This document shows positions 48,001 through 56,124 of a stretch of DNA of 64,000 nucleotides, piece after piece. The translations under genes and the position numbers were made by a program. How positions within the stretch are numbered: position 1 is the stretch's first letter; every line of letters begins with the position of its first letter. The notes beneath the pieces are model-generated. The model worked only from the letters and a program-made list of their open reading frames with translations. It ran no database searches and was not told where the DNA came from. This DNA comes from Clytia hemisphaerica (lineage: Eukaryota > Cnidaria > Hydrozoa > Leptothecata > Clytiidae): NCBI GenBank assembly GCA_902728285.1, contig CACVBU010001358.1, positions 992,001 through 1,056,000 of the forward strand, read 5' to 3'.

Positions 48001-51000
48001 AAGTGTCAAAAAAAGGAGTGACCACATACGTTAGAGACAAACTTTAATAAAACTTATCTTGATTTGGAGGGCCATTCAAACTTTTTAAGATTTTAAATGC
48101 GCAATTTAAAGCGAATATCTTCGAGTTGAAATTTCATATAAAAAGATGAACTTTACGAACAATTAACAACACATTTGTTCACATTGCTAACACTAGTTTA
48201 TAATCTCAGATATAATATATCAAGTTTGAGTTACACTTTCTAGCAAAATAATATGCCGTTGCTAGTTATAAATCTTTATAAAATATTTTAGCTTCTATTT
48301 ATAAAGAGATGCCAACAAAAATACTTTAGAAATTACCCATCAATGACCAAATTTTTAATACTGCATTTTATTTAGCACCATAATCCAGGAGGGCACGGTG
48401 GTCTTTCTGTACCTTGCTTCAAAAGGTTTCCAACATCGTTCGATTCTCGCTTGCATCCCCAAACTCCAGGAGGGCACTGTTGTCGTTTCACCTTTTCTGC
48501 ATCTTGCTTCAAAAGGTTTCCAAGGTTGTTCGATTCTCGCTTGCATCCCCAAACTCCAGGAGGGCACTGTTGTCGCTTTACCTTTTCTTCACCTTGCTTC
48601 AAAAGGTTTCCAACATCATTTGATTCTGGCTTGCACCAAGTTCCAAGAGGGCACAGTTCTGGCATATTATCTGATGATAAAGAGTCCTCTTTGATACCAT
48701 TTTGATCTGAAAGGGAGAACCCTTTAACTCATCATTAACTTAAAAATGGTGTCTGAATACTCAAGGGACCTAAAAGCTCTATGTTCTTTAGTTTTTGCAT
48801 GTCAAACAATGTCAAACATTGTGATTTAGTAAAAATTGAGAATATCGTATAAATCGTTAAAATTTTCCGAAAACAGCATTTTTACAACGTAAACTCTGGT
48901 TTTCGCCTTGGGTCCTTATTTTATCAAAATTCTCATTTGTCGATGCCTTTTTTTTTTTGCAGTTATGGATCTTACCCTTAAGAGCTGCAAGTACCTTACA
49001 ATACTTCAATAAATCTCACCTCTATATAGAACATTTGCTACCACACTACTACCAAAGACAAAGACCAAAAGTAAACCTCCCTGAAATGAAAACATTTTAA
49101 AACAGTTTTATTCTTGAATTTATAATTGAATTCAAAAAATTGGCTGGAGATATTTATAGTTGGGGAGTGTCTAGTCTTGCATGATGCTACCAGGCTCATA
49201 TTACCCGGTTACCCAGATGAACAAATCTATGATACTCGTATTACGTGGGTTGATTTAAACACCTGTTTTTTGTGAATAGACCATTTACAATAATAACTTA
49301 CTTCTGTGTTTATTGAGAAGACGTACTCAAAAATTTCCGCTTTCGATTTTTTGACCTTTCCTTTTTTAAATTTGAATTTTCAAATGGAATTGCGCTCACA
49401 AATACGCGCGCGATGCAAGCTATATAACTCTTTTTGGCTGCCAATGTAACATTAGGGCACAGATTTTGCTTTATACTCCCAGGATCCGCCGGAAATTAGA
49501 TTTTATTCAAATCGTATAAAATTTTTCCTGCACTAAAAATAATATTTCCACCGCCAGTGGAATCGTGGAACTCCGGTGTTTATTCTTGAACTTTAAATCT
49601 ACTCAGAATAATTTTTTCGCCGCCCGCGGAATAGCGGGTTTCTGTTGGACTGGCGGAAGAGTTTATCAAACGATAATCTTGAATTTTCAAATTTACCCGT
49701 AATAACTTTTCCGCCTCTGCAAGGATGAATTGAATGAATATGAGAACTGTCGATCTATGCCGGGTATCCACCGGACTTCCGCGATTCTGCATGCGTCGGT
49801 GGAACAGAACATCAAAAATATTGAATGCCTCTGATGAATCCGAGAGGATTCAAGGGATGATAATACATGAATATACATCTCACCAAGAATTTATTATAGA
49901 CACTGGATAAACAACGAGCTATATTTTCATTGATTTCATTATTGATTTCACTATTGTTCACTCTCCTTTCTTCATTAAACAACTTTTCGTGACATTTTAA
50001 TAATTTTCTTCATCTTAACACAGTCATTTCAATTCCCAAATGAAAATTAAGTTTTCTTTAGAGAGGCGAACGCATCAAGTTAATTGCTAATTATGTGTCG
50101 TTATGACGTTTCAAGTCGCAAGAAAGATACGAAAAACATCCTATGTATAAAGAATCGAAATTTAACCTTCAAACTTTTACCTCAATAAAACCACAACCTC
50201 AATAAAACCACCGATCCACCACGAGCCTCCAAAATATTTTCATATCACGGTGAAGCCAAGACACTCAAGTCTAATATATATCAATATAGCTCTTCTTAGA
50301 AAGATGTTAGAAAGATATCGCCAACTTAAAATTCTGTGTCATTTTAGGCCTTTTGTTTGATTTTTCTTGTCTGATGATGTTTTTGTCACAGCAGATTTAA
50401 TACATGTATCCGTTCAGTATTTTAGCATTTATTTCCAAATTCATTATTTCGGCTTTAACTAGTTTGGCAGTTTAGCCAGACAAGGGATGTCGGGTCACAG
50501 ACCACCGTTCCTCTCTGATGGGATTTAGAGCCAACCCCCCTTCAAATCAATCGAATATCAAATAAGAAAAATTCATGCTTTCACGGCTTTAATGACTTTT
50601 AAGAGTCAACTGACGATCTCATTTGATTATTGATTAAGAAAAGAAAAAATAATATGTAGAAGATACTGACTCTGAGTGGGAGTGAAGCTGGTTTAGTTTA
50701 CTCTAGTATAAGGGTTCTCTCGATAGCAGGACACGTCCAAGAATAACTGATTGAATATCAATATTTTGGTATTGGATCAAATTTGTTAAATAATACTCGA
50801 GTATTGAAAATAATTTTCCCTCCTATTGAAAACAAATAAACAAAATGCAATGAAACGAACTTTTTTCAAATGACATTAACACTAAAAATAATTCAAAAAT
50901 GTATCAATATTTGAAATTTATCACAAGAATCCCTAATGAAGAACAATCACTTTATATATTCAATAAAAATGATTTGAAATATGTTACTAATCAAAAATCC

Positions 51001-56124: not shown

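Follow-up and report, generated by a model that had tools for sequence, protein, structure and literature searches.

Three neuropeptide families have been counted in the common ancestor of cnidarians (PMC9545775), and all three were described as amidated by Thiel et al. (PMC11087051). The described gene that the locus analyzed here most resembles is the sea anemone gene NvLWamide-like (Nv242283) of Nematostella, which contains a CPPGxWGC array with a predicted product, QCPPGLWGC, that is not an amide (PMC6152798). Neurons have been marked in Nematostella with this gene and a reporter, and in the accounts given in PMC4968017 and PMC8128482 it was used mainly to label neurons and to drive reporters. 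GLWC- and GFWC-peptides, which resemble WGC-peptide precursors, are also named in PMC12440616 where Nematostella is discussed. The cleavage rules described for Nematostella include KR followed by Q, and X-P-P starts located beside an acidic residue (PMC11087051). According to the same source, the GLWL peptide acts on GPR18, a member of an ancestral cnidarian receptor family, and the GLWL precursor, which bears on the WGC family if the two are the same, is one of two without neuroglandular restriction.

In the hydrozoan jellyfish Clytia hemisphaerica, GLWamide and RWGamide genes have been described, including a cyclic GPPCRWGCamide encoded on RWGamide precursors (PMC8638164). A 2025 screen based on KR sites and an N-terminal Q added 36 new Clytia genes, among them those of the 'QQ-peptides' (PMC12440616). 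No report of the Clytia gene called gene 1 below was found among the literature matches listed, which covered 20 of 72 rows and included two neuropeptide papers, PMC6152798 and PMC12440616. Since the criteria of the 2025 screen (KR, N-terminal Q) suit gene 1, this gene may be in the supplement of PMC12440616, or else in that of PMC8638164 or PMC11087051.

Structure of genes 1 and 2

The window, i.e., the whole stretch of DNA that was analyzed, is 64,000 nucleotides long and spans positions 992001-1056000 of contig C928. An earlier note on this DNA proposed a cluster of three secreted peptide genes with starts on the minus strand at 49095, 51959 and 54457; the three ATGs and the leader ends ANVLYR, ANVLYR and FANVIFK were confirmed. 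The features of the first two genes are as follows.

49020..49095, minus strand: gene 1 exon 1, signal peptide MFSFQGGLLLVFVFGSSVVANVLYR and base 1 of the split Asp codon (identical to the start of Clytia P0002)
48707..49019, minus strand: gene 1 intron, phase 1, GTGAG...TTTCAG (sequence reading)
48372..48706, minus strand: gene 1 exon 2, DQNG start, four Trp-Cys motifs, TAA stop (100% match to P0002)
48633..48653, minus strand: gene 1 variant copy CPLGTWC, without dibasic flank
48543..48572, minus strand: gene 1 peptide copy QQCPPGVWGC, KR on either side
48453..48482, minus strand: gene 1 peptide copy QQCPPGVWGC, KR on either side
48375..48401, minus strand: gene 1 C-terminal copy PPCPPGLWC, abutting the stop codon
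51884..51959, minus strand: gene 2 exon 1, signal peptide MVSFQRIFWLITIFAFDIGANVLYR and base 1 of the split Asp codon (P0001 match)
51702..51883, minus strand: gene 2 intron, phase 1, GTAAG...TTTCAG (sequence reading)
51067..51701, minus strand: gene 2 exon 2, DQYGNLVRYQGRNDQLDVYQ module, one CPPGFWC, C-terminal SSICCGLRLACCNG, stop (P0001 match; module common with the genes on contig C211)
51529..51549, minus strand: gene 2 CPPGFWC, SK before and Asp after
51070..51111, minus strand: gene 2 C-terminal SSICCGLRLACCNG, CC-x5-CC, ending in Gly

The products of genes 1 and 2 correspond to proteins named as those of C. hemisphaerica. At 100% identity and full length, the spliced models of gene 1 (136 aa) and gene 2 (236 aa) match the deposited Clytia proteins P0002 (UniRef 'Cnidarian restricted protein') and P0001 (NCBI 'uncharacterized protein'), respectively. 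The exon joins thus agree with the public annotation, and genes 1 and 2 are real, deposited Clytia genes.

Gene 1 has an N-terminal hydrophobic leader, as judged by reading its sequence. Its mature part does consist of repeats, but these are not the uniform CPPGxWC copies first described: they read CPLGTWC, CPPGVWGC twice and CPPGLWC. The two WGC copies have the form QQCPPGVWGC-KR, and the gene thereby contains at least two C-[PL]-P-G-[LVI]-W-G-C copies followed by KR or KK. After the last Cys come KR in both WGC copies, KPE in CPLGTWC and the stop codon in CPPGLWC; a Gly amidation donor is absent after the last Cys of all the motifs, and dibasic flanks are present on both sides in two of the four. 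The hallmark of GLWamides, a C-terminal LW-G-basic sequence, was not found in either gene, where the corresponding sequences are WGC-KR, WC-K and WC-stop (gene 1) and WC-D (gene 2).

The motif is rare. The window contains five occurrences of CCNCCNGGNNNNTGG (three in gene 1, one in gene 2 and one outside the genes, at 53458 on the plus strand), compared to a mean of 0.06 in shuffled sequence. In the 417 Mb Clytia genome, CPPGxWC was found in two places, one in each of genes 1 and 2, and CPPGxWxC in three, two of them in gene 1. Four of these five places are therefore in genes 1 and 2, and the reversed controls gave none. The remaining CPPGxWxC place, CPPGSWMC on contig C564, was judged from the matched letters alone and set aside. 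A search of the Clytia genome with gene 1 returned nothing but gene 1 itself.

Gene 2 has no dibasic sites around its single CPPGFWC, and for this reason it was not filed as a member of the LWamide-like (WGC) group. Its peptide output is uncertain. The last Gly of its SSICCGLRLACCNG end could, to judge by its position, serve as an amide donor, and the CC-x5-CC end is possibly a separate candidate peptide unrelated to the Trp-Cys motif. This end may resemble the T-type frameworks of cone snails.

Searches for known domains yielded five weak Pfam rows for the two genes, in a listing from which matches above about E 0.1 were mostly dropped. All were below the cut-off: DUF5732, ZSWIM1-3_C and Lustrin_cystein for gene 1 and Vesi_VP2 and SAE2 for gene 2. 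Lustrin_cystein scored 9.9 bits with gene 1 against a curated cut-off of 27 and was unlisted for gene 2. The best match of gene 1 in a sequence search of the PDB had an E value of 0.04, with no sensible relative.

Short Cys-rich products with a common leader and divergent mature parts, together with the CC-x5-CC end of gene 2, are what a cluster of toxin-like or defence peptides (venom or antimicrobial) would also present. We nonetheless regard it as very improbable that the cluster encodes such peptides and not neuropeptides. The tandem copies and dibasic layout of gene 1 are of the neuropeptide precursor type, its motif is that of a neuron-expressed Nematostella gene (PMC4968017, PMC8128482), and no toxin or defensin family was present among the five weak Pfam rows. 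The neuropeptide-type pattern recognized in the earlier note is retained, with gene 1 as a cnidarian neuropeptide-type precursor whose leader exon is common to gene 2.

Relatives of gene 1 and origin of its motif

Relatives were sought with an artificial probe, which included published Nematostella peptides and the leader of candidate gene 3. Of 602 candidates, 56 proteins matched it at E<=10, and the sequences of 18 of these were inspected. The 56 proteins, which include P0002, and P0001 made up a comparison set of 57, of which 15 were tabulated for motifs. Protein P0005, deposited as 'LWamide neuropeptides [Nematostella vectensis]', has eight motif copies, all eight followed by KR or KK, and contains the published string QCPPGLWGC; from its name and peptides it is taken to be the published NvLWamide-like. 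Seven copies were found in P0007, from Desmophyllum, and nine, eight and eight in P0003, P0004 and P0006, respectively. The sequence CPPGVWGCKR is the same in all 10 residues in Clytia, P0011, Desmophyllum P0007 and others.

Native gene 1 scored 114.6 bits with P0005 when summed over the repeats, which inflate the sum, and 38 bits for the best single domain. An earlier protein search with native gene 1 (seven candidates) did not return P0005, which was recovered by the artificial probe carrying its own published peptides. In the reverse direction, P0005 searched against the 417-Mb Clytia genome gave two rows at E<=10, both of them gene 1 (E 3.4e-4 and 0.005; three candidates scored). When the motifs of gene 1 were masked, the best matches among the 57 proteins were P0011 (27.2 bits, E 1.3e-8) and gene 2 (16.5 bits, E 2.9e-5); the next E value was 0.34, and no named anthozoan was among the best eight rows. 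Because the similarity to anthozoan proteins is gone after masking, the homology of gene 1 to the Nematostella gene rests on the repeated 10-residue motif and the architecture, and gene 1 is filed by these two features and not as a proven orthologue.

Protein P0011 begins its array with CPVGFWCDT (compare CPPGFWCDT in gene 2), which is followed by three CPPGVWGC copies with spacers like those of gene 1 (LG..LKQD), and its apparent exon 2 begins with DQQD. From these features we infer that P0011 is probably the copy of another hydrozoan. Its search against the Clytia genome returned four rows: two for gene 1 (E 9.7e-15 and 1.35), one for gene 2 (E 0.027) and one on contig C374 (E 2.18), which looked unrelated.

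GLWC-type precursors among the probe matches came from Actinia (P0031), Nematostella (P0048), Acropora (P0022) and Montipora (P0046). In P0010, P0031 and P0048, the last two being named anthozoans, the motif is followed by Gly and two basic residues in 7/8, 3/4 and 4/5 copies, respectively. The Cys-ring peptides of these three precursors could be amidated, in parallel to the non-amidated WGC type.

Like NvLWamide-like, gene 1 encodes a secreted precursor in which C-P/L-P-G-x-W-G-C copies are arrayed in tandem, with KR or KK after them and no amidation Gly. It differs in having two WGC copies plus two variants, in its unrelated leader and spacers, and in a first exon that is common with gene 2. 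The CPPG[LF]WC form, which lacks the inner Gly and occurs in gene 2 and as the final copy of gene 1, is like that of the anthozoan GLWC precursors P0031, P0048 and P0022 and of the GLWC- and GFWC-peptides of PMC12440616, but the Clytia versions are followed by the stop codon or Asp, unlike those of P0010, P0031 and P0048, which mostly continue with Gly and two basic residues. The PPG-x-W core and the repeated, secreted precursor are also features of cnidarian GLWamides (Clytia pp2 and pp11; scyphozoan and cubozoan pQPPGVWamide) (PMC8638164, PMC6909153). While GLWamides end in W-amide, the gene 1 peptide would continue with Gly and then Cys and be non-amidated. Short Cys-Cys rings near a Trp are known from Clytia GPPCRWGCamide and scyphozoan CXSPMCWFRXamide, which are amidated and differ from the gene 1 peptide in ring size and sequence (PMC8638164, PMC6909153).

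Taking the cluster as a whole, we consider it probable that gene 1 is a WGC-family preproneuropeptide, gene 2 its tandem paralogue and gene 3 at most a leader-like exon or mini-gene. Gene 1 is read, by motif and architecture, as a hydrozoan member of the sea anemone LWamide-like (WGC) family. The suggestion that no named family combines the features of the cluster was not supported, as the CPPGxWGC array was already known in NvLWamide-like (PMC6152798, P0005). The motif of gene 1 has a precedent in Nematostella, and the proposal of an undescribed family is right only in part; for the Clytia gene itself the literature matches listed contained no report.

A different origin for the likeness to NvLWamide-like would be convergence, in which the hydrozoan and anthozoan CPPGxWGC arrays arose separately from GLWamide precursors (PPG-L/V-W-G-KR) by gaining two Cys; gene 1 would then work like NvLWamide-like but would not be its orthologue. 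The masked sequences have no detectable similarity beyond the motif, and the Clytia leaders differ from those of the anthozoan precursors inspected, as convergence would have it. Furthermore, the existence of the cyclic Clytia GPPCRWGCamide on RWGamide precursors indicates that Cys has been gained close to a Trp-Gly core in another instance (PMC8638164). Against convergence stand the 10-residue identity of CPPGVWGCKR across Clytia, P0011, Desmophyllum P0007 and others, and the fact that P0005 picks out gene 1 alone in the Clytia genome and not a GLWamide gene. We hold separate origins to be unlikely and, by our own estimate, clearly favor common origin over convergence from GLWamides. With common origin, the WGC peptide family may be as old as cnidarians.

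The sequence of gene 1 and the Nematostella rules (PMC11087051) together suggest how its peptide would be made. The signal peptide would direct the product into the secretory pathway, where the Lys-Arg pairs on either side of QQCPPGVWGC would be cleaved and KR trimmed to leave a decapeptide. Its N-terminal Gln would cyclize to pyroglutamate and its two Cys would close an eight-residue disulfide ring; because a terminal Gly is lacking, the peptide would stay non-amidated. The last copy, TE-RPPCPPGLWC, fits the X-P-P rule. Once secreted, presumably from neurons, the peptide may signal through a G protein-coupled receptor, in a neuronal or neurosecretory role. A hydrozoan WGC precursor would provide a genetically tractable medusa in which to probe the function of the peptide, and it would add a non-amidated family to the ancestral amidated three.

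Signal exon shared by genes 1 and 2 and its likeness to contig C211 genes

In both genes a phase-1 intron separates the first base of an Asp codon from the other two, and exon 2 starts with the proposed Asp-Gln-X-Gly, read as DQNG in gene 1 and DQYG in gene 2. Leaders were compared with BLOSUM62, with gene pairs anchored at the splice site, and the null was the best offset on 44 script-picked, signal-like N termini. Genes 1 and 2 scored 53, while the 44 other N termini reached at most 17. A two-sequence comparison of genes 1 and 2 gave an E value of 4e-10. The view of genes 1 and 2 as paralogues is borne out by the whole leader, the intron phase and the CPPGFWC core, but a leader common to all three genes, as originally stated, is not established, since gene 3 scored 16 and 11. 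The mature parts, described as almost unrelated, differ because the protein bodies differ; both genes nevertheless contain a C-P-P-G-x-W-(x)-C core. The idea of a conserved leader heading a fast-diverging mature peptide holds for genes 1 and 2 with respect to the whole leader and not with respect to the Trp-Cys core, which is kept with anthozoans.

When gene 2 was searched against the Clytia genome, contig C211 was matched at two positions (E 2.3e-4 and 6.6e-4). The two genes modeled there, A and B (9846-14618), have a leader ending in SVLYR, a phase-1 intron and an exon 2 that starts with DEYG. Gene A (12200-14618) has a three-exon model encoding a secreted, highly charged protein of 503 aa with zero Cys and with KDEVKKT repeats; its LYDEYRRMLDERF stretch resembles LYNHYRQMLDQKF of gene 2, and it had no Pfam matches up to E 0.1. 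Gene B is interrupted by a run of Ns, and only its start was read. A module of about 20 residues, (V/I)RY-GR-DQL-VY, is common to gene 2 and C211 genes A and B, with IRY in B. Genes 1 and 2 therefore share VLYR, the intron phase and D-E/Q-x-G with the C211 genes, and gene 2 additionally shares the module.

Whole-leader scores were 16 (A and gene 1), 13 (B and gene 1), 0 (A and gene 2) and 23 (B and gene 2), of which only the last exceeded the null. Since these scores lie mostly within the null, it is the join and the exon-2 module that tie the C211 genes to genes 1 and 2. In two-sequence comparisons, gene 2 and C211 gene A were 44% identical over 68 residues (E 7e-14), and gene 1 and C211 gene A gave an E value of 0.12. 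A genome search with the first 138 residues of gene A returned five rows, all of them gene A, gene B or gene 2. As far as these alignments indicate, the body of gene 2 is related to a secreted-protein family that is also present on contig C211. The DNA pattern of VLYR plus a splice donor was discarded as a family marker, as it had 8 matches in the genome and 11 in the reversed control; of the eight, only those in gene 2 and C211 gene A lie downstream of a signal-like start.

The less expected of these findings is that different secreted proteins reuse a single signal-exon join, and the cluster offers a test case for how such an arrangement comes about. Tentatively, the CPPGxWGC ring peptide could be a fourth, non-amidated family of the cnidarian stem, beside GLWamide, GRFamide and PRXamide, whose gene in Hydrozoa would have taken over, or lent out, a signal-exon join with a phase-1 intron that also heads otherwise different secreted proteins, a mix-and-match of leaders for new peptide genes; we would put this scenario at slightly short of even.

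Candidate gene 3 and neighboring genes

The third start was examined with the same leader comparison.

54341..54457, minus strand: candidate gene 3, leader MIRRSRFVILCGLVSIVFANVIFK, possible donor after 54385 (unproven)

Its leader scored 16 against gene 1 (null maximum 17), 11 against gene 2 (17) and 26 against C211 gene A (26). Membership of gene 3 in the same family, as claimed in the earlier note, is not upheld: its leader is no closer than other signal peptides, which speaks against membership by that note's own refutation rule. With leader scores within the null, gene 3 was rejected as a secured third member and is at most a leader-like exon or mini-gene. Reading through the possible donor gives a 38-aa ORF ending in CCAGGTRYGG; the single CC attributed to its mature part exists, but it sits past that donor. 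When an exon 2 was sought in 51702-54330, no convincing acceptor emerged that combined a good frame with an Asp start; of nine listed, the one judged best by eye, at 53194, would add a 15-residue tail without Cys.

We lean towards gene 3 lying outside the family, either as a chance signal-like ORF or as an alternative first exon joined to gene 2 by splicing. Besides the leader scores with genes 1 and 2, which stay below the null maximum of 17, the lack of a strong exon 2 of its own fits this reading, and gene 3 has the same strand and phase as gene 2. In addition, its leader was part of the artificial probe and yet is borne by none of the 57 compared proteins, with the proviso that the probe covered proteins of 117-373 aa, so that shorter or longer ones lay outside its range. 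Pointing the other way, the GGT of gene 3 is located exactly at the end of the leader, as in genes 1 and 2, a TATAAA is found at -92 and an ATTAAA 94 bases past the stop codon, and shuffling of the leader gave p values of 0.0049 against gene 1, 0.010 against gene 2 and 0.0005 against C211 gene A. Because of these p values, the position of the GGT and the two sequence signals, gene 3 was retained as a candidate.

Other coding sequences surround the cluster. On the plus strand, leucine-rich repeat exons (Pfam LRR_6) at 43416-45630 and an EF-hand exon (EF-hand_7) at 54989-56121 flank the peptide genes. If these exons belong to one gene, the peptide cluster lies antisense in its large intron. Two ORFs on the minus strand at 58446-60441 match animal haem peroxidase (PF03098), with one score slightly over the cut-off and the other under it, and by eye we take them to be a cyclooxygenase-like gene. 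At 4119-4907, also on the minus strand, the window includes a 263-aa ORF with a class-I glutamine amidotransferase domain, possibly intronless.
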